From Limnohabitans radicicola (lineage in GTDB: Bacteria > Pseudomonadota > Gammaproteobacteria > Burkholderiales > Burkholderiaceae_C): a stretch of 64,000 nucleotides of DNA. The stretch lies in contig NZ_JACYFT010000001.1 of NCBI RefSeq assembly GCF_014837235.1, forward strand, positions 372,001-436,000, in the 5' to 3' direction. Under the pieces are notes generated by a model. The model was not told where the DNA came from. It ran no database searches and saw only the letters and a list, made by a program, of their open reading frames with translations. A program made the position numbers and the translations under genes. Shown here in pieces: positions 25,055 to 52,073 of the stretch; position 1 is the first letter of the stretch; each line of letters starts with the position of its first letter.

Positions 25055-25073
25055 GATCGGCTCCTCAATGTGC

Positions 25074-29128: not shown

Positions 29129-29295
29129 CAGAGACTCCAAAATGGATTGAACCAAAGACCTATTGACCTATGCATTTTTGTTCATTGGCGATGTTAACTT
29201 CACCCCGGTTTTGCCTCAAGGGAAAAACCCTTATACCCATGGATAAAGGTCAGGTTTGAGCCCGCACAGACACGCAGCATCGCCGCCCATGCACA

Positions 29296-31870: not shown

Positions 31871-31951
31871 ATTGTTTTTCTCGAATGCAAAAGGACTGAA
31901 TCCTGCTGAACGCAGAATTCAGTCCCATGGAAAGCGCGATTCAGAACCGCA

Positions 31952-33070: not shown

Positions 33071-33216
33071 GGCGTGTCTCCAATCGTTGTTGAACTTGCA
33101 AGCGTAAAAAATTACCGCTTGGTCATCCATTATGGGAGCGCACCTTTTTTTGGTTCTAAGTGAAAACCCGAGCAAAAAATGACATTATTTTCAAAACCAT
33201 CCGGAAATAATTTCAA

Positions 33217-33840
33217 TCACCCCAAAAGATCAAAGCCCTGCGACTCCACACTGATGAAGGTTTCGGTGAAGGCGGCCAGGCGTGCATAAAAAACGGCCCG
33301 GGGATGGTTTTGCAGTGCCTGACACAGGGCAGGCAACCACGGTTGCACATGCTGATTGAAAAAAGCTTGCTGACGGGCCAGGTTGGACACTGCGGCATCG
33401 TCGCCAGCGATCAGAAACCGCATGACCTCGAAAACACAGGCGACATGGTCTTCCGTTTCGGGCATGGACTCGCTGCGGGCCAGGCCCAATTCAGCCAGAT
33501 CGTCACGCAATCGCACCAAGGGTTTTTCATTGAGAAAACCGCTCAGGTAATGGGAGCCGAACAGGTACACCTCAGGCTTGCCCACCCCCCCAAAAAGGCT
33601 GCTGTATTCCGCTGCCAGTTGCTCAACGCTTTGGCTGCGCGCACAAGCCACCAATTCACGCCAAGGCTCTTCCAAAAAGCCCCCGGCATCGGGCGCTTCG
33701 GTCACGGCCACCTGCAGCTGCCCCAATAGCTCGGCGTCGGGGGCTGCGTAGTACAGCTGCGAAAGCAGTCCGTACAACTCGGCACGTGCGGTTTCTTCGT
33801 CGAGGGCGTGGCTGCTGGACAAGTTCAGGTCTTGGCTCAT
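33217..33840 (-). CDS. TorD/DmsD-type molybdoenzyme chaperone
   Basis: 207-residue all-helical cytoplasmic chaperone of the TorD family. Seen: EYSSLFGGVGKPEVYLFGSHYLSGF, the EDHVACVFEVMRFLI motif and the FFNQHVQPWLPALCQAL segment. These bind the TAT signal of a molybdoenzyme until cofactor insertion is done; the obvious client is FdhA at 25923. It is 2 nt from the polyferredoxin gene and last in the run that starts at boxC or fds. It is separated from FdhA by the TRAP genes. Confidence 0.92.
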   Translation of the reverse strand: MSQDLNLSSSHALDEETARAELYGLLSQLYYAAPDAELLGQLQVAVTEAPDAGGFLEEPWRELVACARSQSVEQLAAEYSSLFGGVGKPEVYLFGSHYLSGFLNEKPLVRLRDDLAELGLARSESMPETEDHVACVFEVMRFLIAGDDAAVSNLARQQAFFNQHVQPWLPALCQALQNHPRAVFYARLAAFTETFISVESQGFDLLG

Positions 33841-33842
33841 GG

Positions 33843-35975
33843 TTATTGCGGTTTGGATGGGTGGTCACCCGCCATGCGCACCTGGTTTTCATCGGTGAAC
33901 ATGTCGATCACGCGGCAGTCGCCGCACATTTTCAGGCGCTCCAGCGCCGCGCCCTGGAACATGCTGTGCCCGGACAGGCGGCCGAGCATGGTTTCGATGG
34001 CCTTGAGTGTGCCAAAAGGCTTTTGGCAACGGATGCAGGCATACGGCGGGCTGTGGTGCAGGCGACGCGGCTGGCTGCGCTCGGGCGTGAGCAACAAACG
34101 GGGTTGCAGCGTGATGGCCTGCTCGGGACAAGTCTTGGCACACAGGCCGCACTGCACGCAGTTTTTCTCAATGAACTTGAGCTCAGGCTGCTGCGGGTTG
34201 TCCTGCAAAGCGGCCGAAGGGCATGCCCCCACGCAGCTCATGCACAAAGTGCAGCGCGAAGCGTCGACCGCGAGGGTGCCCAGCGGAGCGCCCGCTGCAG
34301 GCAAGGCCAGCGCCTCGGGCTTGACTGTGCTTTGCAGGGCCGGGGCATGCGCCATCAGGTGGTCCAGCGCCAGCTCCAGGGTGCTGCGCTTGTCGGACTG
34401 CACGGCATGGCGCGCTGCCACGCCCGGCCCCACAGGCACTTTGGCACTGCGGCCAGACAAGCGTTGCAATTCGCTGTCGAGCACCTGCGGATGTGCGGCC
34501 TCGATCAACTGCAAATGCACGCCGTCGTAGCCCAGGCCGTTGAGCACGGCTTGCGCCACGGCCATCTGCTCCACCAGCGCTGTTTTGTATTGCGGCGCTT
34601 CTTCGTCGGTCAGCAGCACCATGATCTGGCGCGCGCCATAAGCCACGGCCGACAGCCACACCTCCAGCCCCAGGCTGACCGTGTGCCACAGTGCCATAGG
34701 CATCACGCGAGCAGGCACACCCTGCATGACCTTGAGCTGTGCACCCCGGCCCAACTCATCGATCAGGGCCTGGCCTTGGTTCTGGCTGTGCAGCAACAAG
34801 GCCGCATCGCGCCCGCCAGCCGCCTGGTAGGTGCTGAGCAAGGTGCGGATCTTGTCGCCCTGCTCCGAGGCTCGGGGGTAGGCATAGGTCAAAGCGCCAG
34901 TCGGGCACACGGTGGTGCAAGCACCACAGCCCACACACAGGTGGGGGTTGACCTGGATTTGCTGGCGCGACTTGTCCGAAGCAATCGCTTCGGCCGAGCA
35001 GATGTCCACGCAGGCATTGCAACCGGTTTGGTCATTGCGGCTGTGGGCGCACAGTTTTTGTTTGTAGGCGAAGAAGCGAGGCTTTTCAAATTCGCCCACC
35101 ATGTCGCGCAACTTGAGCAAGGTCTGAAGATCCTTGCCATCCCAGCGGAAATAGCCTTGGGGCAAAGCGTGCTGGCGGAAAGTCACCGCTGCCTGCGGGC
35201 CACGCAGGTCCAGCACCAGATCAAAGCGTTCGCTTTGCGAACGGGGCTCGCGCGAAAAATCGATGGCACCCGCCGCATGGCAAACCTTGACGCAATCGCG
35301 GTGCGCGCTGCAACGCGACAGGTCAACCTGGTAGTCCAGGCCAATGGCCTGTTCTGGACAGGCGACCACGCAGGCGTTGCAGCGGGTGCACAGGTCCAGA
35401 TCGATCGGGTTGTTGGCCAGCCAAGCCACCTGGAAGGCCCCCAGCCAACCGTTCAGACTTTGCAGCTTTCCGGCCATGACCGGAAAACGCCGCACCTGGC
35501 TGCCTCCGGCCTCGCCCGCGCCATCGGCCCAGAGGGTGATGTCCAGCACATCCGACAACAAGGCCGCTGCGCGCTCGGCCTGGTCGAGCGGCCCCAGGAT
35601 CAACAACCGCCCCTGGCTTTTGAAGGTCACCGTGGGCACGGGCTCAGGCTCGGGCAAGCGGGCGGCGGCCAGCAAAGCCGCCATCTTGGGGGTGGCCTGC
35701 CCACCTTCGGCAGACCAGCCTGCGCTTTCCCGGATGTTCACAAAACGGATGGAGGCCGCTGCGCCCTCGGTCTGTTCGGCCAGCTCGGTCAACAGCCGCT
35801 GCTCCTGGGTGCAGGCCACCACCACGGTCTCGCGGCCCTGGATGGCCTGCTGGAAAGCGCCCGCCTCTCGGCGGCACAGCGTGGTGTGTTCTTTCAGGTC
35901 CTCACCGAGCGCTTGACCCAGCTTGGGGGTCTGCAGCGGCAGGGTCTGGTTGCAGTTGCAAATCAGTGTCGTCAT
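33843..35975 (-). CDS. Multi-[4Fe-4S] ferredoxin-like protein of formate dehydrogenase clusters
   Basis: 710-residue polyferredoxin. The N-terminus has CNCNQTLPL. At least six ferredoxin-type motifs follow: CTRCNACVVACPEQAI, CSAHRDCVKVCHAAGAI, CNACVDICSAEAIA, CVGCGACTTVCPTGAL, CTLCMSCVGACPSAAL and CVQCGLCAKTCPEQAI. Near the C-terminus CIRCQKPFG...CGDC looks like a metal knuckle. The start MTTLICNCNQ is chosen because the family begins there; it lies 74 nt inside the DUF3306 gene. Such proteins occur with DUF3305, DUF3306 and TorD in formate dehydrogenase clusters (for example in Shewanella) and are thought to help assembly or electron delivery; no activity is proven. Confidence 0.87.
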   Translation of the reverse strand: MTTLICNCNQTLPLQTPKLGQALGEDLKEHTTLCRREAGAFQQAIQGRETVVVACTQEQRLLTELAEQTEGAAASIRFVNIRESAGWSAEGGQATPKMAALLAAARLPEPEPVPTVTFKSQGRLLILGPLDQAERAAALLSDVLDITLWADGAGEAGGSQVRRFPVMAGKLQSLNGWLGAFQVAWLANNPIDLDLCTRCNACVVACPEQAIGLDYQVDLSRCSAHRDCVKVCHAAGAIDFSREPRSQSERFDLVLDLRGPQAAVTFRQHALPQGYFRWDGKDLQTLLKLRDMVGEFEKPRFFAYKQKLCAHSRNDQTGCNACVDICSAEAIASDKSRQQIQVNPHLCVGCGACTTVCPTGALTYAYPRASEQGDKIRTLLSTYQAAGGRDAALLLHSQNQGQALIDELGRGAQLKVMQGVPARVMPMALWHTVSLGLEVWLSAVAYGARQIMVLLTDEEAPQYKTALVEQMAVAQAVLNGLGYDGVHLQLIEAAHPQVLDSELQRLSGRSAKVPVGPGVAARHAVQSDKRSTLELALDHLMAHAPALQSTVKPEALALPAAGAPLGTLAVDASRCTLCMSCVGACPSAALQDNPQQPELKFIEKNCVQCGLCAKTCPEQAITLQPRLLLTPERSQPRRLHHSPPYACIRCQKPFGTLKAIETMLGRLSGHSMFQGAALERLKMCGDCRVIDMFTDENQVRMAGDHPSKPQ

Positions 35976-36540
35976 GGTCAGTGCTTGTCGCGGCCATTGG
36001 GGCTGCATGATCCGGCGACTGTGCCACAACTGCGGCGCCTTGTTGCGACTGAGGGTTCTGACCGGGGTTTTGCTCTGCGCCGCCGCGGGTACGTCCTCCC
36101 TCGGGCCCAGGTGCTTGTGGCGGCACCAGGTTCAGGAACTGCGCCCCCGCCATTTGCGCCAACATGCCAGCAGGCAAAGGGTCAGGCTGGGTGTAGTCAC
36201 CGATGTAAATGTCCAGACCGTCCATCACATTGAAGTGCGGGTCGGCAAAGAGTTTCTTCATCGCTGCATTGCGCACATCCGGGGTCACGCCCTGGCGCAT
36301 GAAAGGCTGAAAGTCCGACGAGGGGCTCAGCGCTTGAGCGTCTTGCAGCGAGGGCAATGGTGCATCGGCCTCCTCTTGTGCAAGGCGTGCCTCTGGCACA
36401 ACCGCACTGGCGGGGCCTGACAAGTCCTGCGGTGGCGGCACGACCGAAGTGGCCACCGACGGCAGCGGTTCGTCCAGCGCACGGCCGAGCGCCGCATCTT
36501 GCTTGCGACGCGACCAGCGGCTGAAAAAGTTGTCGCTCAT
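35902..36540 (-). CDS. DUF3306 protein (formate dehydrogenase accessory)
   Basis: 212 residues starting MSDNFFSRWSRRKQDA, the defining DUF3306 N-terminus. A middle part (SDFQPFMRQGVTPDVRNAAMKKLFADPHFNVMDGLDIYIGDYTQPDPLPAGML) is conserved in the family; the C-terminal third is low-complexity (Gln/Pro/Asp). Function unknown; it always travels with DUF3305 and formate dehydrogenase genes. It overlaps DUF3305 by 4 nt and runs 74 nt into the polyferredoxin gene. Confidence 0.9.
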   Translation of the reverse strand: MSDNFFSRWSRRKQDAALGRALDEPLPSVATSVVPPPQDLSGPASAVVPEARLAQEEADAPLPSLQDAQALSPSSDFQPFMRQGVTPDVRNAAMKKLFADPHFNVMDGLDIYIGDYTQPDPLPAGMLAQMAGAQFLNLVPPQAPGPEGGRTRGGAEQNPGQNPQSQQGAAVVAQSPDHAAPMAATSTDHDDTDLQLQPDPAAADPQAGSSAR

Positions 36541-37121
36541 GGTGCACGCCCTCCCCCCTTGCGCTTGGACTCGGTACTGACCGAGGCAGGCTGTCCGAAA
36601 CGGTCGGTGAGGCGCTGAAAACTTTGGGGCCGCTGGCGTTTTTTGACTTCCGGGACGAAATGCTCGGCTGCAAAACCATGCAACCACTGAACCACATCAG
36701 CAGGTGCTGCCACGTTTTCGACCATTTCCTGGGCATCCAGCCAGCGGCCTGCATCGTGGTAACTCAGACTGACCGCCTGAGGCACCGCCACCGGGTCGCC
36801 GCCATCATCGGCATCGATGTGTCGCCACATCACAAAATAGCACGGTGTTGGGGAGCTTGCATTCAGCCAGTAACCCTGTGCATCGTCCGGAAAAAGCTCT
36901 ACAGTCCAGTTGGGGTACAGCCACAGGGCCTCGTGGTCACTTTGACGCAAGCAACGCGGCTCGGAGCCGAAACCGGCTTCGTGAGGCACCACATCGGCCA
37001 GCACCCAACGCCAAGGCTGCCAACGCGCCATGGCCCCTTGCACCGGCTCACGGCGCATGAGGACAGCCACACGGACTTGGGGGCGTACAGAAGAGACGGG
37101 CTGTTCGGTCATGCGCCGCAT
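36537..37121 (-). CDS. DUF3305 protein (formate dehydrogenase accessory)
   Basis: About 194 residues. The family core RVAVLMRREPVQGAMARWQPWRWVLADVVP is followed by LYPNWTVELFPDDAQGYWLNASSPTPCYFVMWR. Two starts are possible: ATG at 37121, which overlaps the fdsA stop as TAATG, or ATG at 37112 (MTEQPVSSVRP), closer to the family start; neither has a good Shine-Dalgarno, which points to coupling with fdsA. Role unknown. Confidence 0.88.
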   Translation of the reverse strand: MRRMTEQPVSSVRPQVRVAVLMRREPVQGAMARWQPWRWVLADVVPHEAGFGSEPRCLRQSDHEALWLYPNWTVELFPDDAQGYWLNASSPTPCYFVMWRHIDADDGGDPVAVPQAVSLSYHDAGRWLDAQEMVENVAAPADVVQWLHGFAAEHFVPEVKKRQRPQSFQRLTDRFGQPASVSTESKRKGGGRAP

Positions 37122-39907
37122 TATGCGGCGGTCGCAGATTCCACTCGCACCGCACAGTATTTGAACTCCGGGATCTTGCCAAAAGGATCCAGTGCCGCAT
37201 GGGTCAGTTCGTTGGCCGCCGCCTCCACATAGGCAAACGGGATGAACACCGCCCCCAGGGGCGTGCCATTGTCCTGACGCAAGGCGAGTTCCACATGCCC
37301 GCGTCGCGAAGCCACACGGATGCGTTGCCCCGGCTGCAAACCCAGACGCCCCATCTCCGCCCCATGCATGCAAGCGGTAGCGGCAGGCTCCAAAGCATCA
37401 AGCACGGTGGCACGGCGCGTCATGCTGCCCGTGTGCCAGTGCTCCAGTTGCCGACCGGTGATGAGCACCAGGGGGTAATCGGCATCGGTTTGTTCTGCCG
37501 CCGCAATCAAGCTTGCAGGGACCAGGCGAACGCGACCGTCTTGCGTTGGAAAGTGGTCGTGGAAGACGATGGGCTGGCCCGGGTCATCGGCGCTCACGCA
37601 GGGGTAGGTGACCGAGCCTGCATTCAAACGCGCCCAGTCGATGCCGCCCATGGTCAGGGCCATGGCCTGACGCATTTCTTCATACACCTGGGCCACACCT
37701 TCGTGTGCACCCACGTAGTGCCAATTAAGGCCCATGCGCTGCGCGATCTGCTGGATGATCCACAAATCGGGTTTCGCATCGCCCGGGGGCAACACGGCCT
37801 GGCGGCCCATCTGCACCGTGCGGTCGGTGTTGCTGACGGTGCCGGTTTTTTCGGGCCAGGCGCTGGCGGGCAGCACCACATCGGCCAGCCAGGCGGTCTC
37901 GGTCAGGAAGATGTCCTGCACCACCAGGTGCTGCAAACTGGCCAAGGCATGGCGGGCATGGTGCAGGTCCGGGTCGCTCATGGCCGGGTTCTCACCCAAG
38001 ATGTACATGCCGCGCACCTTGTGCGGGTCGCTCTCGGGCGCGAGCGCCTTGTGCATGATCTCGACCACGGTGTAGCCGGGCTGGTCGTCGAGTTTCGTGT
38101 CCCAAAATTTCTCAAACCAGTCCTGCGCAGATTTGTCGCTCACACGCTGGTAGTTGGGGTACATCATCGGGATCAGGCCCGCGTCGCTCGCGCCCTGCAC
38201 ATTGTTCTGGCCGCGCAGCGGATGCAGGCCGGTGCCGGGGCGACCGATCTGGCCCGTGATGCTGGCCAACGCGATCAGGCAGCGCACATTGTCGGTGCCA
38301 TGCACATGCTGGCTCACACCCATGCCCCACAAAATCATGGCCGCCTTGGCCGTGGCATAAGCCCGCGCCACCTCGCGGATGGTGTCTGCCGGAATGCCGC
38401 AAACCACGCTCATGGCCTCGGGTGTGTAGTCCCGCACATGGGCTTTGAGCTCGGCCACATGGTCGGCACGCTCGCGCAGGAAGGTCTCGTCGCACAGGTT
38501 TTCGGTCACGATCACGTGCAGCATGGCGTTGAGCAGCGCCACATCGGTGTCAGCCTTGAACTGCAAGGTGCGCCAAGCGTGGCGACCGATGTCGGTGATG
38601 CGCGGGTCCATCAGCACGATGCGTGTGCCGCGCCGGGCAGCGTTCTTCATCCAACTGGCGGCCACCGGGTGGTTGGCCGTGGGGTTGGAGCCGATCACGA
38701 TGATGAGGTCGGCATGCGCCACATCGCGCACCGGGTTGCTCACCGCGCCGGAGCCCACGCCTTCGAGCAGTGCAGCGACACTGGACGCGTGGCACAGGCG
38801 CGTGCAGTGGTCCACGTTGTTGCTGCCAAAACCGGTGCGCACCAGTTTCTGGAAAAGGTAGGCCTCTTCGTTGCTGCCTTTGGCCGAGCCGAAACCGGCA
38901 AGCGATTTGGGGCCGTGCAGTTGACGCAGCCTGTTGAGCGGCAGGGTGGCCAGATCCAGTGCTTCTTCCCAAGTGGCTTCGCGGAAGACATCGCGCCAGT
39001 CGGTGTGGCCCTCCAGCAGCGCCACGTCCTTGGCCACGCCCGCCTTGCGGATCAGTGGCCGGGTGATGCGGTCCGGGCTGTGGATGTAGTCCATGCCAAA
39101 GCGGCCTTTGACGCACAGGCGCCCTTCGTTGGCCGGGCCTTCGCGGCCCTTCACGCTGATGATCTTTTCATCGCGCACCTGGAAAGTGACCAGGCAACCG
39201 ACACCACAAAACGGGCAGACGGAGTCGACTTCGCGGTCCACGCTTTGTGGGCCCATGTGGCTCTTGGGCATGAGCGCGCCTGTGGGACAGGCCTGCACGC
39301 ATTCGCCACAACCCACACAAGAACTGCCACCCATCGTGTCGGCCAGGTCAAACACCACCTGGGTGTGCGCCCCCCGGAAGGCCAGGCCGATCACATCATT
39401 GACCTGCAGGTCGCGGCAAGCGCGTTCGCAGCGGTTGCACTGGATGCAAGTGTCCAGATTCACCGCCATGGCCGGGTGTGACAGATCGGCGGGCACGGCC
39501 TCGCGACGCAAGTCGGCCAACGCCGGACGCACCTGTACGCCGTGGTGTTCGGCCCACTGGCTCAGCTCGCCGTGCGGGGCCTCGAGGCGGTCGTCCAACC
39601 ACTTGTGGCCCTGCTCGGGCAGGTCGGCCAGCAGCATCTCCAGCACCATCTTCTGGCTTTTGACCGCACGTTCACTGTTCGTTTGCACCTGCATGCCGGG
39701 CGTAGCGCTGCGGCAGCAGCTGGGCGCGAGCGTGCGTTCACCGGCCACCTCGACCACGCAAGCGCGGCAGTTGCCGTCGGGCGCGAGGCCTTCCTTGTGG
39801 CACAGGTGCGGGATGGCAATACCCAGGTCTTTGGCAATGTTGAAGATGCTTTTGCCAGCGGGCGCTTCAACGCTTTGGCCGTTGAGGGTGAATTGGACGG
39901 TGCTCAT
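37121..39907 (-). CDS. fdsA: NAD-dependent formate dehydrogenase alpha subunit FdsA
   Basis: 928-residue cytoplasmic catalytic subunit. Domains in order: a [2Fe-2S] ferredoxin (C36, C47, C50, C64), two ferredoxin clusters (CIQCNRCERAC at 154-164 and CVGCGECVQAC at 197-207), a proximal [4Fe-4S] (C231, C234, C238, C265), then the bis-MGD domain with catalytic Cys372 in CTRLCHASSV. No signal peptide. Between the [2Fe-2S] and dicluster parts (about 90-125) no cysteine is seen, so a NuoG-type His/Cys3 cluster is not evident. It overlaps fdsGB by 4 nt. With FdsGB it would oxidise formate and reduce NAD+. Confidence 0.95.
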   Translation of the reverse strand: MSTVQFTLNGQSVEAPAGKSIFNIAKDLGIAIPHLCHKEGLAPDGNCRACVVEVAGERTLAPSCCRSATPGMQVQTNSERAVKSQKMVLEMLLADLPEQGHKWLDDRLEAPHGELSQWAEHHGVQVRPALADLRREAVPADLSHPAMAVNLDTCIQCNRCERACRDLQVNDVIGLAFRGAHTQVVFDLADTMGGSSCVGCGECVQACPTGALMPKSHMGPQSVDREVDSVCPFCGVGCLVTFQVRDEKIISVKGREGPANEGRLCVKGRFGMDYIHSPDRITRPLIRKAGVAKDVALLEGHTDWRDVFREATWEEALDLATLPLNRLRQLHGPKSLAGFGSAKGSNEEAYLFQKLVRTGFGSNNVDHCTRLCHASSVAALLEGVGSGAVSNPVRDVAHADLIIVIGSNPTANHPVAASWMKNAARRGTRIVLMDPRITDIGRHAWRTLQFKADTDVALLNAMLHVIVTENLCDETFLRERADHVAELKAHVRDYTPEAMSVVCGIPADTIREVARAYATAKAAMILWGMGVSQHVHGTDNVRCLIALASITGQIGRPGTGLHPLRGQNNVQGASDAGLIPMMYPNYQRVSDKSAQDWFEKFWDTKLDDQPGYTVVEIMHKALAPESDPHKVRGMYILGENPAMSDPDLHHARHALASLQHLVVQDIFLTETAWLADVVLPASAWPEKTGTVSNTDRTVQMGRQAVLPPGDAKPDLWIIQQIAQRMGLNWHYVGAHEGVAQVYEEMRQAMALTMGGIDWARLNAGSVTYPCVSADDPGQPIVFHDHFPTQDGRVRLVPASLIAAAEQTDADYPLVLITGRQLEHWHTGSMTRRATVLDALEPAATACMHGAEMGRLGLQPGQRIRVASRRGHVELALRQDNGTPLGAVFIPFAYVEAAANELTHAALDPFGKIPEFKYCAVRVESATAA

Positions 39908-41613
39908 GCCGCCCCCACTTCGTGCGGGAAATACTGCAACACGCAGCGGATCGGGTTCGGCGCGGCCTGGCCCAGACCACAGATGGACGCATCGCCCATG
40001 ACCTGCGCCAGGTCTTCGAGTGTTTCGCGGTCCCAGACCTCACGGGCCATCAGCTGCGCCGCCTTGTCGGTGCCCACGCGGCAAGGCGTGCACTGGCCGC
40101 AGCTCTCGTGCGCAAAAAAACGCATCACGTTCAGGGCCGCTTCACGGGCGCTGTCGTGTTGGCTGAGCACCACCACGGCGGCCGAGCCGATGAAGCAGCC
40201 ATGCGGCTGCAAGGTGTCAAAGTCCAGCGGCACATCGGCCAAACGGGCAGGCAAAATGCCGCCGCTGGCACCGCCGGGCAAATAGGCGTACAGCGTGTGC
40301 CCCTCGGCCATGCCGCCGCAGTGTTCATCCACCAGTTCGCGCAGCGTGATGCCCGCAGGCGCGAGCTTCACGCCCGGCTGCTTCACACGCCCGCTCACGC
40401 TGAAGCGGCGCAGGCCCTGGCGACCGTGGCGGCCCTGCGATGCAAAGCTGTCCGCCCCGTTTTCCAGCAGCTTGCGAATCCAATAGAGGGTCTCGAAGTT
40501 GTGCTCCAGCGTGGGTCGACCAAACAGGCCCACCTCGGCGATGTAAGGGGGGCGCAGGCGCGGCTCGCCACGTTGGCCTTCGATGCTTTCGATCATGGCG
40601 GATTCTTCACCGCAGATGTAGGCCCCTGCGCCGCGTCGCAGCTCGATGCGCGGCAAGGCGCAAGGCGGATTCGCCTGCAGATCGGCCAGCGCTTGCATGA
40701 GCAGCACACGCGCTTCGTGGTATTCGTCACGCAGGTAGATGTACACCGCTTCGCAACCCACCACACTGGCGGCGATCAGCACACCCTCCAGAAAACGGTG
40801 CGGGTCCGACTCCAGGCCCGTGCGGTCCTTGAAGGTGCCGGGTTCGCCCTCGTCGATGTTCACCGCCATCAGGCGCGGGGCTGGCTGCTGGCGCACGATA
40901 CGCCATTTGCGACCCGCCGGAAAACCTGCGCCACCCAGACCACGCAAGCCCGAGGACTCCAGCACCTGGATCACCGATTCGGCCTCGCGCTCACCCGAGG
41001 CCACTTGTTGTGCCAGGCGGTAGCCCCCGGCTTGCACATAAGCGTCCATGTGGACCGCATCGGGCAAAGCATTCGGCTGCGTCTGATGGTGAGTGACACG
41101 TTGCACCACCGCATCAACGCTCGCGTACGCCACGGCCTGCTGACCCACCTGTGCCGCCGGGGCCTGCTCGCAGCGGCCCAGACAGGGCACAGGCACCACC
41201 TTCACATCCAGCAAATCGTTTTGCAATTGGCGAAGCAAGCTGTGGCTGCCCGCGAGGCTGCAGCTCAGGCTGTCGCACACCCGCACCTTGATGCGCGCAG
41301 CGGCTTCATCGTCTTTCAGGATCTCGAAGTGGTGGTAGAACGAAGCGACCTCGAACACCTCGACCACGGACAAGCGCATCTCGGCCGCCAGCGCCACGAT
41401 GTGGCGCTCGAACAAACCATGAAAATGGTCATTCAGCACATGCAGATGCTCGATCAGCAGGTCACGGCGGTGGCCGTTTTCGGGCGGGTCACCGATCAGG
41501 GCCCGCACCTCGGCACGGGCTTCATCGCTGGCCTGACGGCCTTTGAGCTGTGAGCGCGGCTGGCGCAGTTGCTGGCGAAGCTGGTCCAGACCGATGTGGG
41601 TGGCGTTCGCCAT
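39904..41613 (-). CDS. Fused FdsG-FdsB: NAD-dependent formate dehydrogenase diaphorase subunit
   Basis: 569 residues joining two subunits that are usually separate. Residues 1-165 are NuoE/FdsG-like, with the [2Fe-2S] ligands C113, C118, C144 and C148 (VCDSLSC, CLGRC). Residues about 185-569 are NuoF/FdsB-like: the FMN/NAD site GLGGAGFPAGRKW and YICGEESAMIESIEGQRG, and near the end a [4Fe-4S] site ESCGQCTPCRVGTD. It passes electrons from FdsA to NAD+. The frame is continuous, so this is a real fusion. The start lies 6 nt after the boxA stop, on the same strand. Confidence 0.94.
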   Translation of the reverse strand: MANATHIGLDQLRQQLRQPRSQLKGRQASDEARAEVRALIGDPPENGHRRDLLIEHLHVLNDHFHGLFERHIVALAAEMRLSVVEVFEVASFYHHFEILKDDEAAARIKVRVCDSLSCSLAGSHSLLRQLQNDLLDVKVVPVPCLGRCEQAPAAQVGQQAVAYASVDAVVQRVTHHQTQPNALPDAVHMDAYVQAGGYRLAQQVASGEREAESVIQVLESSGLRGLGGAGFPAGRKWRIVRQQPAPRLMAVNIDEGEPGTFKDRTGLESDPHRFLEGVLIAASVVGCEAVYIYLRDEYHEARVLLMQALADLQANPPCALPRIELRRGAGAYICGEESAMIESIEGQRGEPRLRPPYIAEVGLFGRPTLEHNFETLYWIRKLLENGADSFASQGRHGRQGLRRFSVSGRVKQPGVKLAPAGITLRELVDEHCGGMAEGHTLYAYLPGGASGGILPARLADVPLDFDTLQPHGCFIGSAAVVVLSQHDSAREAALNVMRFFAHESCGQCTPCRVGTDKAAQLMAREVWDRETLEDLAQVMGDASICGLGQAAPNPIRCVLQYFPHEVGAA

Positions 41614-41619
41614 ACTGGC

Positions 41620-42930
41620 TCAATAGGTTTCGAGGTGCAGGCGGCCTTCTTTCTTGAGCGCGCCACCGATGGCTTCCCAGTCCAGACCGGCGTTCTGAGC
41701 GATGTCGCGCAGCGCCATGACCACGCCCTCTTCCATGCTCTTCAAACCGCACACATAGAAGCAGGTGTTGGGGTCTTTGAGCTGCAGTGCGATGTCGGCA
41801 GCGCGGTCACGCAGCGCATCCTGCACATAGCGCTTGGGCTTGCCCACTTCACGCGAAAAAGCGAACTCGATGTCGATGAAGTCTTTGGGCAGGTTGTTGA
41901 GCGGCCCAAAGTACGGCAGCTCGGCCGGGGTGCGGGCACCAAAGAAAAGCATCAGCTTGCCCCCCTCGAATTTGCCGCTCGCCCGCAAGCGGCGACGCCA
42001 TTCGGTCATGGCGCGCATCGGGGCCGAACCCGTCCCCGTGCAGATCATGACGATGTTGCTCTTGGGGTGGTTGGGCATCAAGAAGCTCGCGCCAAACGGC
42101 CCGATCACCTGCACTTTGTCGCCGACCTGGAGGTCGCACATGTAGTTGGAGCCGACGCCACGCACAGGTTGGCCGTCGTGGTCTTCGAGCACGCGCTTGA
42201 TGGTGAGCGACAGGTTGTTGTGGCCCGGACGCTCGCCGTTGCGGGGGCTGGCAATGGAGTATTGGCGGGCGTGGTGCGGTTTGCCTTTGGCGTCCACACC
42301 GGGCGGGATGATGCCGATCGACTGGCCTTCGAGCACCGGGAAAGGCATGCTGCCAAAGTCGAGCACGATGTGGTGGGTGTCGTAGTCTTGCTGGCCGTCT
42401 TGTTTGCCGACTTCGGTCACGCGCAGGTTGCCGGTGACGGTGGCAGTGATGGTTTTTTCGGCCGCCTTGGGGCCATACAGGTTGGTGTAGGCATGGGCCG
42501 CTGACCAAGGGGGAATGGTCGCGCCGTAGGCGGCCGAGTTGAAGCCGGACGCGCTGGCGGTGCTGGCGGCCGATGCGGAGGAAGCCGCGGCTTGTGCAGC
42601 GGCTTGGGCTTCTTCCTGAGCGGCGCCGACCTCGGCACCGGCTGCGGCAAGTTCTTCGGCGCTCAGTTCAGCAGGCAGCACGTCCCATTTGAGCTGTTCT
42701 TCAATGCTGTAGGCCTTGGCCTTGGGCATCATGCGCCAGTTGTCGATGGAGCCCGTGGGGCATGGCGAGATGCAGTCCATGCAGAGGTTGCAGACATCGG
42801 CCTTGACCACGTAGTTGAGGGAGTCGTGGGTGATGGCCCCGACCGGGCAGATCGCTTCGCAGGTGTTGCAGCGGATGCAGATCTCCGGGTCAATGACGTG
42901 CTGTTTGATCAAGGTCGTTTCGGTGCTCAT
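41620..42930 (-). CDS. boxA: Benzoyl-CoA 2,3-epoxidase reductase component BoxA
   Basis: NADPH-dependent flavoprotein reductase that feeds electrons to the epoxidase BoxB. 436 residues: an N-terminal two-cluster ferredoxin ([32 protein letters not shown]), a linker rich in Ala/Ser (about 90-135), then an FNR-like module with the FAD motif RQYSIASP and the nucleotide site [14 protein letters not shown], ending ...HLETY, a typical FNR C-terminus. The start [12 protein letters not shown] is preferred over an upstream ATG at 43047, which would read through the hairpin-rich spacer. Confidence 0.96.
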
Positions 42931-43030
42931 GTCTTGGCTTTCTTGTTGTCGCTTCGGCTTTGGTCTTTGGCTTACGGGGTCCGCAACGATATGGCTTGGA
43001 GCCGGGCAAGCAATGCAGTCTACCGGCATT

Positions 43031-43154
43031 GTGTGTGCTTGGCGCACACCATGCAGTCGTCAAAGGCAGGGGCGGGTGACGATTTTTGGTACCCCAGTAT
43101 GAGGAACCCGCCCCTGCCTTTGACGACTGCTGCCCCACAAATGAGGCAGCAGTC
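43031..43154 (-). repeat. Three nested hairpins in the boxB-boxA spacer
   Basis: The 243-nt spacer contains a 25-bp perfect inverted repeat (arms 43053-43077 and 43106-43130, loop 28 nt), a 10-bp inverted repeat GACTGCTGCC/GGCAGCAGTC (43125-43134 and 43145-43154), and an 8-bp hairpin with one wobble (43031-43038/43042-43049). The first two share 43125-43130, so in the RNA they compete. No long T run follows on the minus strand. Likely roles are transcript stabilisation, RNA processing or partial termination between boxB and boxA; it could also be a dispersed repeat element. Confidence 0.85.
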
Positions 43155-43173
43155 AATTCAAAAGCTCAACGCA

Positions 43174-44601
43174 TCAGTTGAAGCGGACGTAATCAAAGTC
43201 CACAGGCTGACGGTTGATGCCCATGACGGGAGGCGCGATCCAGTTGGCGAACTTGCCTGGCTCGACGACACGGCCCATCAGGCTGGCCACATAAGCGCGG
43301 TCTTCGTTGGTCGGCAGCCACTCGCCCACTTTGGCGTTCCACTCGGCCTCAGACACCACACGGCCTTCGGGCGTGATCTTGGCGCCGGACAAAGAACCGA
43401 TGTTGCGGTGGAAAGCCTTGTGTGGCGCAGTCAGCTTGAAGGGGATGCCGGCTTTTTCGATCACACGGTTCCAGCGCTCGATACCGCCTTTGGAATCGGT
43501 GATGTAGTCATCGCGCAGCACTTCGTTCAAGGCGTTGAGCATCGGCACTTCTTTTTCGACCAGCTTGCCGTCTTCGACCGACAGGATCTTGTAGCTGTTG
43601 CCCTTGAGGACATGGTCATCGGTGCGCTTGCCTTCTTCGTAACGGCCCTTCAAGCCGGAGCTGTAGAAGGTGGCGGCGTTGGACGACTGATCGGCACCGA
43701 ACAGGTCGATGGTCACCGAGAAGTGGAAGTTGATGTAACGCTGGATGGTGGGCAGGTCGATCACGCCAGCCGCGCGCAGCTTGGCCACGTCGTCGGTTTT
43801 CAGCTGGTTCATCACATCCACGGTGCGCTGGATGGTGCGGCTCACGCCGGACTCGCCCACGAACATGTGGTGGGCTTCTTCGGTCAGCATGAACTTGGTC
43901 GTGCGGGCCAGCGGATCGAACGCCGACTCGGCCAAAGCGCACAACTGGAACTTGCCGTCGCGGTCGGTGAAATAGGTGAACATGAAGAAGGACAGCCAGT
44001 CGGGCGTCTTCTCGTTGAAGGCTTGCAGAATGCGGGGGTTGTCGGCGTTGCCGCTGTTGCGCTCGAGCAGGCCCTCGGCTTCTTCACGGCCGTCCTTGCC
44101 AAAGTACTTGTGCAGCAGATAGACCATGGCCCACAGATGACGGCCTTCTTCCACGTTCACCTGGAACAGGTTGCGCAGGTCGTACTGGCTGGGCGCAGTC
44201 AGGCCCAGGTGGCGTTGCTGCTCGACGGATGCGGGTTCGGTGTCGCCTTGGGTCACGATGATGCGGCGCAGGTTGGCGCGGTGTTCGCCAGGCACGTCTT
44301 GCCAGGCGGCTTCGCCGATGTGGTCACCGAAGTGGATCTTGCGGTCTTGCTCGCCGGGATTGAGGAAAATGCCCCAACGGTAGTCGGGCATCTTCACGTG
44401 GCCAAACTGGGCCCAGCCTTGGGGGTCCACGCTCACGGCGGTGCGCAGGTAAACGTCGAAGTTTTGCGAGCCATCAGGACCCATGTCATTCCACCACTGC
44501 AGGTAGTTGGGCTGCCAGTGCTCCAGCGCGCGTTGCAGCGTGCGGTCTTCCGACAGGTTGACGTTGTTGGGGATTTTTTCGCTGTAGTTGATACCGGACA
44601 T
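43174..44601 (-). CDS. boxB: Benzoyl-CoA 2,3-epoxidase oxygenase component BoxB
   Basis: Class I di-iron oxygenase that converts benzoyl-CoA to 2,3-epoxybenzoyl-CoA. 475 residues. Carboxylate/His iron motifs are visible at EEGRHLW (151-157) and EEAHHMF (241-247), both E-x2-H type. Family landmarks include WNDMGPDGSQ near the N-terminus and GMNRQPVDFDYVRFN-like GINRQPVDFDYVRF at the C-terminus. It lies between boxC and boxA; BoxA is its reductase. Confidence 0.97.
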   Translation of the reverse strand: MSGINYSEKIPNNVNLSEDRTLQRALEHWQPNYLQWWNDMGPDGSQNFDVYLRTAVSVDPQGWAQFGHVKMPDYRWGIFLNPGEQDRKIHFGDHIGEAAWQDVPGEHRANLRRIIVTQGDTEPASVEQQRHLGLTAPSQYDLRNLFQVNVEEGRHLWAMVYLLHKYFGKDGREEAEGLLERNSGNADNPRILQAFNEKTPDWLSFFMFTYFTDRDGKFQLCALAESAFDPLARTTKFMLTEEAHHMFVGESGVSRTIQRTVDVMNQLKTDDVAKLRAAGVIDLPTIQRYINFHFSVTIDLFGADQSSNAATFYSSGLKGRYEEGKRTDDHVLKGNSYKILSVEDGKLVEKEVPMLNALNEVLRDDYITDSKGGIERWNRVIEKAGIPFKLTAPHKAFHRNIGSLSGAKITPEGRVVSEAEWNAKVGEWLPTNEDRAYVASLMGRVVEPGKFANWIAPPVMGINRQPVDFDYVRFN

Positions 44602-44689
44602 GAGAGTCTCCAGAAATTAAAGCAACGGTGGGGTCAAATTTCGGTTGCAGCGCGGACCACCGGGAACCACGCCGCACAACGTCAAAACA

Positions 44690-46348
44690 TCAAACGCGGT
44701 TCAGGTCGAACTGGACTTTTTCGCCCTTGCCGTAGACCTTCAGAGCGCCCTTTTCGCCGACGGCGTTGGGGCGCTGGAAAATCCAGTTCTGCCAGGCGGT
44801 CAGGCGGCCGAAGATGCGGGTCAGCATGTTCTCTTGGCTAGCAAAACGCAGATTGGCTTCCAAACCGGTCAGGGCGTCGGGCGACATGGCAGAACGCTCT
44901 TCCAGGGCCAGGCGGATCTCGTCGGCCCAGTCGATGTCATCAGGGGCTGCCGTGACCAAGCCCAAAGCCAGGGCCGCGTCAGCGTCCAAAGCCTTGCCGA
45001 TGGCGCCGCGTGCGGCTTCCATGGCAGGCACTTCTTCGTAGAAGCGGCGCTGCAGGCGGGTCTGGTCGTTGACCATGGGGAAGAAACCGAAGTTCATTTC
45101 GTTCAGCTGGATCTTGGGGGCATTGGCCTCGTCGTCAGGCAGCGCCAGCATGTAGGCGCGGTCGGCGCAGAAAGCCAGTTCGGCGAGTGTGCCGACAAAA
45201 CATGTCCCCTCTTCAATCAGGGCGAACAGGCTGCGCGAAGTCACGTCCATGCGGGCCAGTGTGCGGCGCAGGTGGCCGATGGTTTCACGCACAAACCAGT
45301 GGTCTTTGTTCGCCAGCATGGTGGCGTCGGAGGCCAGCACGGCAGCGGCGTCGCCCGAAGTCTTGAGCACCCAGGTGCCGATGTCGAGTTCGTTGGTGCG
45401 CATGTGCAAGATGGCGTCGTCCAGTTCACGCACCATCTGCAAGGGCCACCAGTTCATGCCCGCGGCTTCAATGCCCGCGATATCAGTGGGCTGCGCGGTG
45501 GCCGGGGCCTTGACGGTGAAGGTGGCGATGCGCTTGGCGCGGTCGATCTCCACGGTGACGTTGGTATAAGTCAGCGCGTCGGCCGCGATGGTGCGGTTCA
45601 GGGGCGTGAGCGCCACACCCTTGGCACCTGCAGGACGGATGCTGCCAGCAGCCAGCTTGGTGGCGCGTTCTTTGACCACATCCTTGAACACGGCGGGCTT
45701 GGCGATCGCATCCACCAAACGCCAGTCCACGGCTTTTTGACCACGCACACCCTCAACACTGGTGCAGAAGATGTCGGCCAGATCGTGGCGCACATGGCGC
45801 TTGTCGGTCACACGCGTCAGGCCGCCCGTACCGGGCAACACGCCGAGCAAAGGCACTTCAGGCAGCGACACGGCTGAAGAGCGGTCATCAACCAGCACGA
45901 TGTCATCACAAGCCAGCGCCAGCTCATAACCACCACCAGCGCAAGCGCCATTCAGGGCGGCGACGAATTTCAAGCCGTCGTGCTTGCTGGAGTCTTCGAT
46001 GCCGTTACGGGTTTCGTTGGTGAACTTGCAGAAGTTCACTTTCCAGCCGTGCGTAGACACACCCAGCATGAAGATGTTGGCACCGGAGCAGAACACGCGG
46101 TCCTTCAAGCTGGTCACCACCACCGAGCGCACTTCGGGGTGCTCAAAGCGGATGCGCTGCAGCGCGTCATGCAACTCGATGTCCACCCCCAGGTCGTAGC
46201 TGTTGAGCTTGAGTTTGTAGCCAGGGCGGATACCGGCATCTTCGTTGATGTTGATGGCCAGCGTGGCAATCTCACCGTCAAAAGACAGGTTGATGTGTTT
46301 GTATTGCGAAGGGTTGGTCTGGTAATCAACCTGAGGTGCTGCGGTCAT
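44690..46348 (-). CDS. boxC: 2,3-epoxybenzoyl-CoA dihydrolase BoxC
   Basis: Enoyl-CoA hydratase-like enzyme that hydrolytically opens 2,3-epoxybenzoyl-CoA to 3,4-didehydroadipyl-CoA semialdehyde and formate. 552 residues with two crotonase-like halves; the first contains FCSGANIFMLG and NGACAGGGYELALACDDIVLVDDRSSAVSLPEVPLLGVLPGTGGL. The start MTAAPQVDYQ is chosen for its GGAGA Shine-Dalgarno; the longer frame starts with TTG within the promoter/operator region. First gene after the BoxR-type promoter. Release of formate here explains the neighbouring formate dehydrogenases. Confidence 0.97.
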   Translation of the reverse strand: MTAAPQVDYQTNPSQYKHINLSFDGEIATLAININEDAGIRPGYKLKLNSYDLGVDIELHDALQRIRFEHPEVRSVVVTSLKDRVFCSGANIFMLGVSTHGWKVNFCKFTNETRNGIEDSSKHDGLKFVAALNGACAGGGYELALACDDIVLVDDRSSAVSLPEVPLLGVLPGTGGLTRVTDKRHVRHDLADIFCTSVEGVRGQKAVDWRLVDAIAKPAVFKDVVKERATKLAAGSIRPAGAKGVALTPLNRTIAADALTYTNVTVEIDRAKRIATFTVKAPATAQPTDIAGIEAAGMNWWPLQMVRELDDAILHMRTNELDIGTWVLKTSGDAAAVLASDATMLANKDHWFVRETIGHLRRTLARMDVTSRSLFALIEEGTCFVGTLAELAFCADRAYMLALPDDEANAPKIQLNEMNFGFFPMVNDQTRLQRRFYEEVPAMEAARGAIGKALDADAALALGLVTAAPDDIDWADEIRLALEERSAMSPDALTGLEANLRFASQENMLTRIFGRLTAWQNWIFQRPNAVGEKGALKVYGKGEKVQFDLNRV

Positions 46349-46449: not shown

Positions 46450-46463
46450 TGCACTTTATTGCA
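46450..46463. promoter_or_regulatory. BoxR operator, distal site (TGCA-N6-TGCA)
   Basis: TGCACTTTATTGCA, immediately upstream of the predicted -35. The same 14 bases, within an identical 16-base stretch, recur at 47480-47493 in the boxR-boxD intergenic region. Confidence 0.72.
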
Positions 46464-46507: not shown

Positions 46508-47422
46508 TCAAGCGGGCAAGGCCAGATGTTGGCGAACCGAAGTACGCAAGGCGTCGAAGGCCTGGTCTTCGCTGCGGCCACTGGTGTTGATGGTCAAGTC
46601 GGCTTTGGAATAGAAGGCCGAGCGCCCTTCGAGAATGCGCTTGAGGTCTTCCATGGCCTCGCGGCTCGCGGCCATCGGGCGCATGTCGCCTTGCGCAGCC
46701 ACACGGCCCATGTGGTCGGCCGCGTCAGCCTGCAGCCACACGGTGGTGCAGTGCGAGAGCAGCACATTGAAGTTGGCGGAATCAGACACCAAGCCTCCCG
46801 GTGTGGCGATCACCACCTCGGGGTAAATTTGAATCGCTTCCTCGAGCGCACGGCGCTCGTAACGGCGGTAGGCGTTGGCCCCGTACAGGTTGTGGATTTC
46901 ACTGATCTGGCAGCCGGCAAACTGCTCGATCTCGCGGCTCAGTTCAATGAAGGGAAAGCCCATGTCATCGGCCAGGCGCTGCCCCAACGCGGTTTTGCCG
47001 GCCCCACGCAAACCAATCAGGGCGATGCGATTCTTGCGTTCCTGTGCATTGCCGCCTTCACCAAACATCTCGCCCAGCTGGACGCGGGCACGGCGCAAAT
47101 CGGCCTCGCTGCGCGTCGAGAGCAACTCACGGATCAACAGCCACTCGGGCGAACTGGTGGTGACGTCACCCAGCAATTCGGCCAGCGAGCACTGCAAGGC
47201 ATGGGACACCTGCAACAGCACCAACACCGAGACATTGCCGGTGCCGTATTCCAGATTGGCGAGGTGCCGTTCGGACACATCGGCGGCCACCGCCACAGCA
47301 CGTCGCGTCATGCCCTGGCGCGAGCGCAAGGTGCGCACGCGCTCGCCCAGCGCCTCCAGAAACGGGCTGCGTTTTGTCTCCGACTCGGACACTTCCATCA
47401 ACGTGGACTCTTGACTTGTCAT
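46508..47422 (-). CDS. boxR: BoxR/BzdR-type benzoyl-CoA-responsive regulator
   Basis: 304-residue repressor made of an N-terminal XRE-type helix-turn-helix (about 25-80, LRSRQGMTRRAVAVAADVSERHLANLEYGTGN) and a C-terminal shikimate-kinase-like domain (about 135-300) with Walker A GLRGAGKTALG. In BzdR/BoxR the second domain binds benzoyl-CoA and relieves repression. It sits upstream of boxC, and the sites it should bind lie on both sides of it (46394-46463 and 47480-47519). Confidence 0.96.
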   Translation of the reverse strand: MTSQESTLMEVSESETKRSPFLEALGERVRTLRSRQGMTRRAVAVAADVSERHLANLEYGTGNVSVLVLLQVSHALQCSLAELLGDVTTSSPEWLLIRELLSTRSEADLRRARVQLGEMFGEGGNAQERKNRIALIGLRGAGKTALGQRLADDMGFPFIELSREIEQFAGCQISEIHNLYGANAYRRYERRALEEAIQIYPEVVIATPGGLVSDSANFNVLLSHCTTVWLQADAADHMGRVAAQGDMRPMAASREAMEDLKRILEGRSAFYSKADLTINTSGRSEDQAFDALRTSVRQHLALPA

Positions 47423-47479: not shown

Positions 47480-47519
47480 TGCACTTTATTGCATACTTGC
47501 AGGCACGCACAATAGTGCA
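47480..47519. promoter_or_regulatory. BoxR operator cluster between boxR and boxD
   Basis: TGCACTTTATTGCA at 47480-47493, then further TGCA boxes at 47498-47501 and 47516-47519. This lies 57 nt from the boxR start and about 110 nt from boxD, in position to control both divergent genes. More TGCA boxes occur at 47568 and 47582. No confident -35/-10 pair was picked out. Confidence 0.68.
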
Positions 47520-47630
47520 TCAACTGCTGTTTATACCGCCAACTGGACCACTCGAACAGTTTTTTGTTGCATGCCCCCGCCTGCAACACACCTGACTACC
47601 CTCATTTCGAGACGACTGAAAGCCATTCAC

Positions 47631-49199
47631 ATGACCGCATTGCTCCCCAACTTCTTCGCCGGCCGCTGGCAGACCGGCACCGACGCAGGTACGCCTCTGT
47701 TTGACCCGGTGCTGGGCACCGAACTGGCCCGCGTGTCCAGCAGCGGCATCGACCTGGCCGAAGGCTTTGCCTTTGCCCGCGAGCAAGGTGGCGCGGCCTT
47801 GCGCGCCATGCGCTACGGCCAGCGCGCCGCCATGCTCAGCCAAATTGTGGAAGTGCTGCAAGCCAACCGCGATGCCTACTACGAAATTGCCACCGCCAAC
47901 AGCGGCACCGTGGCCAAAGACTCGGGCGTGGACATTGATGGCGCCATTTTCACCCTGGGCTACTACGCCAAGCAGGGCGCGGCCCTGGGCGATGCCACGC
48001 TGCTGCTGGACGGTGAACGCATCCGCATGGCCAAAGACCCGGCCTTCCAAACCCAGCACATCCAGGTGCCCACACACGGCGTGGCGCTGTTCATCAACGC
48101 CTTCAACTTCCCCAGCTGGGGCCTTTGGGAAAAAGCCGCCCCCGCCCTGCTCTCGGGTGTGCCGGTCATCATCAAGCCCGCCACAGCCACCGCCTGGCTG
48201 ACCCAGCGCATGGTCAAGGATGTGGTGGACGCAGGCGTGCTGCCCGTGGGCGCGCTCTCGGTGATCTGCGGCTCGTCAGCAGGCCTGATGGACCAACTGC
48301 AGGCCTTTGACGTGGTCAGCTTCACCGGCTCGGCCGAGACGGGCCGGATCATCCGCAGCCACCGCGCCGTGACCGAGCTGTCGGTGCGCTGCAACATCGA
48401 AGCCGACAGCCTCAACAGCGCCTTGCTTTCGCCCGATGCCACAGCTGACAGCGAAGCTTTCAAGCTGCTGGTGGCCGAAGTTGCGCGCGAGATGACCGTC
48501 AAATCCGGCCAGAAATGCACCGCCATTCGCCGCATTTTTGTGCCGCGTGCCTTGTACCAAGCCACTGCACAGGCCATTGGCGCGCGCTTGGCCAAAACCA
48601 GCGTGGGCAACCCAAGGAACGAGTCCGTGCGCATGGGGGCCCTGGTGAGTCAAGAACAAAAAGCCAGTGTGCTGGCGGGCCTGGCCCAGCTCAAGACCGA
48701 AGCCACGGTTTTGTACGATGGCAACGCAGCACCGCTGGTGGATGCCGACGCATCGAGCGCCTGCGTGGCCCCCGTGCTGCTGGGCACCGAATCGCCCATG
48801 AGCGCCCAGGTGCTGCACGCGGTCGAGGTGTTTGGCCCCGTGTCCACCCTCATGCCTTACGACAGCATCAACGAGGCCTACACCATGATCCGCCGGGGTG
48901 AAGGCTCGCTGGTGTGCTCGGTCTACAGCGAAGACCCGACTTTCACCGCCCAGGCCTCGGTGGCGCTGGCCAGCAGCCACGGGCGTGTGCACGCGGTCTC
49001 GCCCGATGTGGCGACCCTGCACAGCGGCCACGGCAACGTGATGCCCATGAGCCTGCACGGTGGCCCTGGCCGCGCTGGCGGCGGTGAAGAGCTCGGCGGC
49101 TTGCGCGCCCTGAACTTCTACCACCGCCGCAGCGCCGTGCAAGGCAGCGCGCTGGCCCTGGACCAGCTGGCCGCACAGGGCGCCAAGCTGCCCCTGTAA
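47631..49199 (+). CDS. boxD: 3,4-dehydroadipyl-CoA semialdehyde dehydrogenase BoxD
   Basis: NADP-dependent aldehyde dehydrogenase that oxidises the BoxC product to 3,4-dehydroadipyl-CoA. 522 residues. Catalytic Cys in GQKCTAIRR; ALDH landmarks NAFNFPSWGLWEKAAPALLSG and SFTGSAETGRIIRS are intact, as is the late EVFGPVSTLMPY. The start MTALLPNFFAG is preferred over 20 upstream codons that overlap the regulatory region. Divergent from boxR and followed after 64 nt by benzoate-CoA ligase. Confidence 0.95.
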   Translation: MTALLPNFFAGRWQTGTDAGTPLFDPVLGTELARVSSSGIDLAEGFAFAREQGGAALRAMRYGQRAAMLSQIVEVLQANRDAYYEIATANSGTVAKDSGVDIDGAIFTLGYYAKQGAALGDATLLLDGERIRMAKDPAFQTQHIQVPTHGVALFINAFNFPSWGLWEKAAPALLSGVPVIIKPATATAWLTQRMVKDVVDAGVLPVGALSVICGSSAGLMDQLQAFDVVSFTGSAETGRIIRSHRAVTELSVRCNIEADSLNSALLSPDATADSEAFKLLVAEVAREMTVKSGQKCTAIRRIFVPRALYQATAQAIGARLAKTSVGNPRNESVRMGALVSQEQKASVLAGLAQLKTEATVLYDGNAAPLVDADASSACVAPVLLGTESPMSAQVLHAVEVFGPVSTLMPYDSINEAYTMIRRGEGSLVCSVYSEDPTFTAQASVALASSHGRVHAVSPDVATLHSGHGNVMPMSLHGGPGRAGGGEELGGLRALNFYHRRSAVQGSALALDQLAAQGAKLPL

Positions 49200-51982: not shown

Positions 51983-52073
51983 GGGCAAGAATCCACAAAA
52001 AAGATGCCTGAGTCTAACCAAGCACGGGTGTCCCCTGATTCCGCGAGGTTGAAACCCCTCTAGCATCACAAAA

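Follow-up and report, generated by a model that had tools for sequence, protein, structure and literature searches.

Formate dehydrogenase genes directly downstream of boxA in a Limnohabitans-type bacterium and their recurrent linkage to box genes in related genomes

Introduction

The box route of benzoate degradation gives one formate per opened ring, and the fate of this formate has seldom been considered. Formation of formate by the boxABC products has been described (PMC8402940), and the closest known system is that of Azoarcus (Aromatoleum) EbN1, in which FdhBA was suggested as a possible member of the BoxR regulon that oxidizes the formate released by BoxC (Suvorova and Gelfand, 2019; PMC6449761). 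In the published account of EbN1, as in the locus described here, the formate dehydrogenase genes lie beside the box genes in a divergent cluster controlled by BoxR, but they follow a lactonase gene, whereas fdwB of our locus starts 6 nt after boxA and a second, FDH3-type enzyme is encoded further downstream (PMC6449761). BoxR is described in the literature as a repressor of the box genes, and BoxR and BzdR bind TGCA repeats (PMC6449761). Our search of the open-access literature found no report of a formate dehydrogenase linked to box genes in either Limnohabitans or Hydrogenophaga, and the text of PMC10803450 that mentions box genes for both genera does not use the word formate. The original prediction for this locus, made from the DNA letters, knew of no formate dehydrogenase described in a box operon, a statement overtaken by the earlier proposal for EbN1 (PMC6449761). 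The function is thus not a new idea, and the link, which is real and recurrent, is a variant of the published prediction.

Among formate dehydrogenases, FDH1 of Methylorubrum extorquens and FdwAB of Cupriavidus are known for C1 growth or general formate use, unlike the benzoate setting considered here. FdsGBA(CD) of Rhodobacter capsulatus and Cupriavidus is a soluble, NAD-linked enzyme with a separate gamma subunit.

Gene Content and Order of the Locus

The window, that is, the whole stretch of 64,000 nt analyzed here, belongs to a Limnohabitans-type freshwater bacterium and carries boxC, boxB, boxA, fdwB and fdwA on the minus strand in that order. These five genes had been named in the original prediction, and NCBIfam and Pfam scores place all of them where it did. 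The features are as follows.

boxC, 44690..46348 (longest ORF to 46390), minus strand: 2,3-epoxybenzoyl-CoA dihydrolase; TIGR03222, 960 bits (cut-off 712)
boxB, 43174..44601, minus strand: benzoyl-CoA 2,3-epoxidase oxygenase subunit; TIGR03225, 900 bits (cut-off 499)
boxA, 41620..42930 (longest ORF to 43047), minus strand: reductase subunit; TIGR03224, 735 bits (cut-off 459)
fdwB (fdsGB in the original prediction), 39904..41613, minus strand: fused NuoE-NuoF-like diaphorase subunit; Pfam domains
fdwA (fdsA in the original prediction), 37121..39907, minus strand: formate dehydrogenase catalytic subunit; TIGR01591, 701 bits (cut-off 666)
DUF3305 protein, 36537..37121 (start uncertain), minus strand; PF11749, 151.5 bits
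DUF3306 protein, 35902..36687, minus strand; PF11748, 118.5 bits
poly-4Fe-4S protein of the FDH3 accessory set, 33843..36029, minus strand; Pfam Fer4 families
TorD-like chaperone, 33217..33840, minus strand; PF02613, 100 bits
TRAP transporter dctP, dctQ and dctM, 29349..33175, minus strand; PF03480, PF04290, PF06808
small Tat-target protein of formate dehydrogenase regions, 28919..29155, minus strand; TIGR02811, 39.2 bits (below cut-off 48.45)
FDH3 alpha with twin-arginine leader RRSFLRRSG, 25923..28883, minus strand; best match TIGR01591, 476 bits (below cut-off 666)
FDH3 beta, 25310..25912, minus strand; NF038355, 344 bits (cut-off 240)
FDH3 gamma, cytochrome b, 23873..25087, minus strand; TIGR01583, 177.5 bits (cut-off 115.85)
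fdhD, sulfurtransferase for formate dehydrogenase, 22582..23460, minus strand; PF02634, 250 bits (NCBIfam FdhD models below cut-off)
boxR, XRE-shikimate-kinase-type regulator, 46508..47422, minus strand; NF006015, 438 bits (cut-off 204)
boxD, 47571..49199, plus strand; NF008868, 864 bits (cut-off 444)
bclA, benzoate-CoA ligase, 49264..50826, plus strand; TIGR02262, 790 bits (cut-off 375)
apbC, Fe-S cluster carrier, 50894..52069, minus strand (that of fdwB), beyond the box block as seen from fdwB; NF008669, 420 bits (cut-off 348)

The gap between the boxA stop codon (41620-41622) and the fdwB ATG (41613) is 6 nt and the overlap of fdwB and fdwA is 4 nt, both exactly as originally claimed. The box pathway set is complete, with boxA, boxB, boxC, boxD and the benzoate-CoA ligase all above the curated cut-offs. 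The run of genes on this strand extends past fdwA as far as 22582, and among them are those of a second formate dehydrogenase, FDH3, whose beta and gamma subunits score above cut-off next to an alpha subunit of the Tat-exported type; this alpha subunit was assigned by its best match, which lies below the TIGR01591 cut-off, together with its twin-arginine leader. A formate dehydrogenase does lie beside boxA, as had been proposed, but the locus holds two, of which the earlier coordinates covered one.

The TRAP genes (29349-33175) separate torD from the Tat-target gene, and these two adjoin without TRAP genes in the related loci L014 and L087; the transported substrate could be an aromatic acid. 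Between apbC and metG, a gene for a patatin-like phospholipase occupies 52074-53255, and its product resembles CBASS and anti-phage phospholipases weakly, at scores far short of the cut-offs. In three related loci (L008:17807-19315, L010:18327-19808, L087:8304-9848), the gene after fdwA encodes a sensor histidine kinase; ORFs of similar size, compared by size alone, stand at this place in L009, L011, L013 and L088, and the window and L007 have no ORF of this type after fdwA.

Formate Dehydrogenases Encoded in the Genome

The fdwB product (569 aa) unites NuoE-like, NuoF FMN-binding, SLBB and NuoF 4Fe-4S parts in a single chain, the NuoE-like and NuoF-like parts each falling below the NCBIfam cut-off and above the Pfam cut-off for the domains. 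The fdwA product (928 aa) is a full-length alpha subunit with a Cys within NNVDHCTRLCHASS. Compared with solved structures, FdwA reached 1177 bits with 7vw6_A and 7e5z_A over residues 2-928, the NNVDHCTRLCHASS motif being identical, and 551 bits with 6tg9, while FdwB reached 668 bits with 7e5z_B, the beta subunit of W-FDH1, over residues 20-564. We take 7vw6 and 7e5z to be the tungsten formate dehydrogenase FDH1 of Methylorubrum extorquens, and 6tg9 to be FdsA of R. capsulatus. Judged from these alignments, the enzyme is closest to the dimeric tungsten-type FDH1/FdwBA, with which it shares near full-length similarity in both subunits, the fused diaphorase subunit and the catalytic motif. It is less similar to classical FdsGBA, which has a related catalytic subunit but separate gamma (FdsG) and beta (FdsB) genes, where a single fused gene is found here. 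The label fdsGB/fdsA has therefore been replaced by fdwB and fdwA, because the nearest solved relatives are W-FDH1 and because FdwA and FdwB are the names given to such a dimer in the JMP134 genome paper (PMC2842291). The window enzyme is predicted to be cytoplasmic and NAD-linked, and its metal and acceptor would be tungsten and NAD+.

The genome (3.34 Mb, 17 contigs) encodes three Molydop_binding proteins, namely FdwA, FDH3 alpha and a 712-aa molybdopterin oxidoreductase (G000:C1:735937-736266; L192:392-2530). The last of these has no NCBIfam family above cut-off among the matches listed, and was rejected as a further formate dehydrogenase at 256 bits on Fdh-alpha (cut-off 666). A second NuoF-like protein (G000:C10) adjoins a weak fdwA match and is probably part of complex I. 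Searches of the genome for RuBisCO and for formate-tetrahydrofolate ligase gave no match, and the use of formate for CO2 fixation and its assimilation through the ligase, the only enzyme searched for as a sink of the latter kind, were accordingly set aside.

Regulation by BoxR

Two exact copies of the 14-mer TGCACTTTATTGCA are present in the window, one ahead of each box operon.

46450..46463, no strand assigned: BoxR-like site TGCACTTTATTGCA before boxC, exact copy
47480..47493, no strand assigned: BoxR-like site TGCACTTTATTGCA between boxR and boxD, exact copy

The presence of boxR, and of TGCA-repeat sites ahead of the box operons, gives the locus the features of a BoxR regulon, the binding sites being putative. 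The same 14-mer occurs once each in L009, L010, L014, L087 and L088 among 102 loci searched. There is no exact copy near fdwB in the window, and the nearest weak site (up to three mismatches) lies inside boxA at 42110; sites of this kind are at chance level (5 seen, 4.84 expected), and TGCA pairs are not enriched in the window (49 seen, 55.8 expected). A promoter scan of the region returned 0 sites and is uninformative, because it also missed the box promoters. Gene spacing suggests that fdwBA is co-transcribed with the box genes, and fdwBA would also be induced by benzoate.

The boxB-boxA Spacer

The TIGR03224 model starts at residue 46 of the long boxA ORF, and the ATGAGCAC start (ATG 42930) is common to most of the relatives shown. 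For these two reasons the boxA start is most likely ATG 42930, and GTG 43047, the start of the longest ORF assumed earlier, is not favored. The spacer would therefore be 243 nt long rather than 126 nt.

42931..43173, minus strand: boxB-boxA spacer with strong hairpins (main hairpin about 43053-43131), from the predicted fold and a conserved-core hairpin family

The fold of 43040-43175 has a predicted energy of -75.2 kcal/mol (z -7.8). Hairpins are present in all 10 Limnohabitans-type spacers (window, L006-L011, L013, L087 and L088) and absent from L014, a locus without fdw whose spacer is about 31 nt. They belong to a family of long palindromes in which a 25-nt core is conserved while the arms vary between copies yet remain complementary, and further copies were found at L154:3889 and 4724 and in loci L155-L184. 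The core CCTCATACTGGGGTACCAGAAATCG (up to three mismatches) occurs in 20 of the 250 family genomes, often as close inverted pairs, with 3 copies in the window's genome and a maximum of 61 in one genome. Across 48 distinct copies, a mean of 19.8 positions of the 23-nt arms are paired (minimum 9), whereas a control with arms exchanged between copies gave 10.8; each arm position shows at least three pair types, and the position adjoining the core is paired in just 20 of the 48.

REP elements have a role in transcript stability, and by analogy the spacer hairpins may act in the same way; they could also split the transcript in two. An Rfam search of the spacer stretch gave nine matches up to E 1 (seven microRNA families, sR52 and isrG), which were set aside as all lay far from the gathering score, and the papers listed by a literature search with part of the core (8 of 170) were unrelated, judged by title. 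The family may correspond to the Beta-proteobacterial repeat element (BRE), which is likewise GC-rich, 75-91 bp long, mostly intergenic and found with several copies per place in Comamonadaceae (PMC3110155); the published text on BRE gives no sequence, and the likeness is one of description (PMC3110155).

Recurrence of the box-fdw Linkage

The boxA-fdwB gap was compared in the 10 Limnohabitans-type loci, that of the window among them, and measures 6 nt in seven, 5 nt in one (L006) and about 190-230 nt in two (L011 and L087). Across 250 family genomes, BoxB was found above cut-off in 130 (142 matches, leaving out eight listed pieces below cut-off and any unlisted ones), FdwA at E <= 1e-200 in 134, and DUF3305 in 117. 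BoxB and FdwA occur together in 95 genomes and are at most 25 kb apart in 14 of these, 13 of the 14 pairs being on the same strand with fdw downstream. How often a formate dehydrogenase follows boxA had been raised with the original prediction, and the arrangement is recurrent, with fdw on the same strand within 8 kb downstream of BoxB in 11 of the 95 genomes, that of the window among them. About 0.46 pairs at this distance are expected if positions are random in 4.2-Mb genomes, so that the observed number is about 24-fold higher (kinship uncorrected); chance neighborhood was set aside in view of this excess together with the shared strand and order of the 13 pairs. No pair within 8 kb exists in the other 84 genomes, in some owing to contig ends, and linkage is therefore unnecessary for the pathway. 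Pairs of BoxB and DUF3305 within 25 kb number 14, all with DUF3305 downstream on the same strand, and FdwA and DUF3305 lie within 1 kb of each other in 23 genomes. Co-occurrence of box and fdw (both, BoxB only, FdwA only and neither in 95/35/39/81 genomes; odds ratio 5.6) was not used as proof because it is confounded by kinship.

In the best 80 of 591 BoxB loci from named genomes, fdw lies downstream in the flank covered in eight (L006-L011, L013 and L044). As many of the 80 are cut by contig ends, these counts and those of the survey are lower bounds. The BoxB of the window shares 82-93% identity with the BoxB proteins of L007, L043 and L073, whose records bear the titles Akkermansia muciniphila, Thiolinea disciformis and Mycobacteriaceae, and these loci represent contamination or transfer. 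In a wider sample of 240 genomes of the order, BoxB matched in 51 (49 above cut-off), and four genomes besides that of the window, all of family f39, have FdwA within 25 kb of BoxB, the two lists having been matched by eye. The fdw genes follow boxA in G287 and lie on the bclA side in G372 and G443, the latter arrangement fitting the published account of Azoarcus EbN1 and BH72 (PMC6449761); for G472 the closeness comes from coordinates only.

Origin of the Gene Order

In the window, apbC and fdwB are separated by the box block. The loci compared were taken from both named genomes and survey genomes, and one species may be represented twice. Among 40 unlinked fdw loci, hand-chosen from the 134 genomes and including one cut just upstream of fdwA (L105), apbC lies upstream of fdwB in 13 and a CynR-like LysR gene in 13, and L111 and L118 have the order apbC-lysR-fdwB-fdwA-DUF3305. 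The order in L014 and L019 is apbC-box-DUF3305...FDH3, without fdw. Within genus g26, apbC stands about 140 nt from fdwB in G025, which has no BoxB match, and the box block lies between the two genes in G152. The fdwB of G152 (L096:9551-11396) is split over several frames behind the box block, which is an assembly error or decay. Among 20 linked loci, a LysR gene directly before fdwB is kept in L089 and L095 (the source of the LysR query), which suggests separate control there. Beta-oxidation genes lie between boxA and fdwB in L044 and L092, with a thiolase in both and also a hydroxyacyl-CoA dehydrogenase and a hydratase in L092. On an FdwA tree of 61 of the 62 loci (a quick tree with SH-aLRT support only; L006 has no fdwA, and L099 and L100 were scored as unlinked), 9 changes of the linked label are required, and starred branches force at least 8 of them.

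The simplest reading of these gene orders, although the direction is not proven, is that apbC and the formate genes were parted by insertion of the box block, repeatedly or with later losses. The block (bclA-boxD and boxR-boxCBA) would have entered between apbC and an older formate island of the form (lysR-)fdwB-fdwA-DUF3305...FDH3-fdhD. This insertion would have put the formate genes behind boxA, the LysR gene having presumably been lost in this lineage.

Discussion

In this study, we consider that the fdwBA genes located 6 nt after boxA most likely share one BoxR-controlled transcript with it and oxidize the formate from BoxC to CO2 with formation of NADH, a reading to which we give roughly three chances in four. 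In the proposed scheme, benzoate would induce a single boxCBA-fdwBA transcript under BoxR control, and the cytoplasmic, NAD-linked FdwBA would oxidize the formate released by BoxC, with a gain of NADH. FDH3, further down the same strand, would have a parallel role and would feed quinone from the periplasmic side. Oxidation of BoxC formate to CO2 with NAD+, as originally proposed, remains the best fit to the anatomy of the locus, the recurrence of the linkage and the lack of RuBisCO and formate-tetrahydrofolate ligase matches. Lignin methyl groups are another source of formate. For that reason, the data on Pandoraea ISTKB, in which the listing of BoxA and BoxB was confined to kraft lignin and formate dehydrogenases increased on the same substrate, were not counted as support (PMC5987411).

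The formate dehydrogenases may instead act on formate whatever its source, such as dissolved formate used as auxiliary energy, under their own expression, the box block having merely landed beside them. Formate genes are indeed common without box genes (FdwA in 134 of 250 genomes, with DUF3305 within 25 kb in 39), 13 of the 40 unlinked loci have the LysR gene upstream of fdwB, and strain JMP134 reportedly draws auxiliary energy from formate (PMC2842291). We nevertheless regard this explanation as unlikely, since the LysR gene is absent and 8 of the 10 Limnohabitans-type loci have a gap of 5-6 nt, and since the linkage appears in several genera with fdw downstream on the same strand in 13 of the 14 close pairs. 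It is very improbable that formate formed on benzoate is removed mainly by FDH3 rather than by FdwBA. DUF3305, which belongs to the FDH3 module, does follow BoxB within 3 kb in 8 of the 14 pairs within 25 kb, and follows boxA without fdw in the flank in 6 of the best 80 of 591 BoxB loci (L014, L017, L019, L024, L027 and L083), but BoxC formate arises in the cytoplasm and FDH3 alpha has a twin-arginine leader, so formate would first need to exit the cytoplasm.

Returning to oxidation of BoxC formate by FdwBA, we tentatively suggest a broader account, itself rather doubtful as a whole, in which the box block repeatedly landed, or was kept, in the formate island behind apbC, and general formate dehydrogenases became a final step induced by benzoate. 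The LysR gene would be gone in Limnohabitans, where the 5-6 nt junction would join fdwB to the box transcript, with the palindrome array splitting boxCB from boxA-fdwBA and setting their ratio.

With two formate dehydrogenases encoded downstream of the genes for ring cleavage, freshwater bacteria of this type likely save the electrons of this formate as NADH and quinol. As the linkage occurs in several genera, this saving could be tested by simple gene removals. Furthermore, the apbC-box-formate order would be a clear illustration of how the landing place of an operon can add a downstream step to it.
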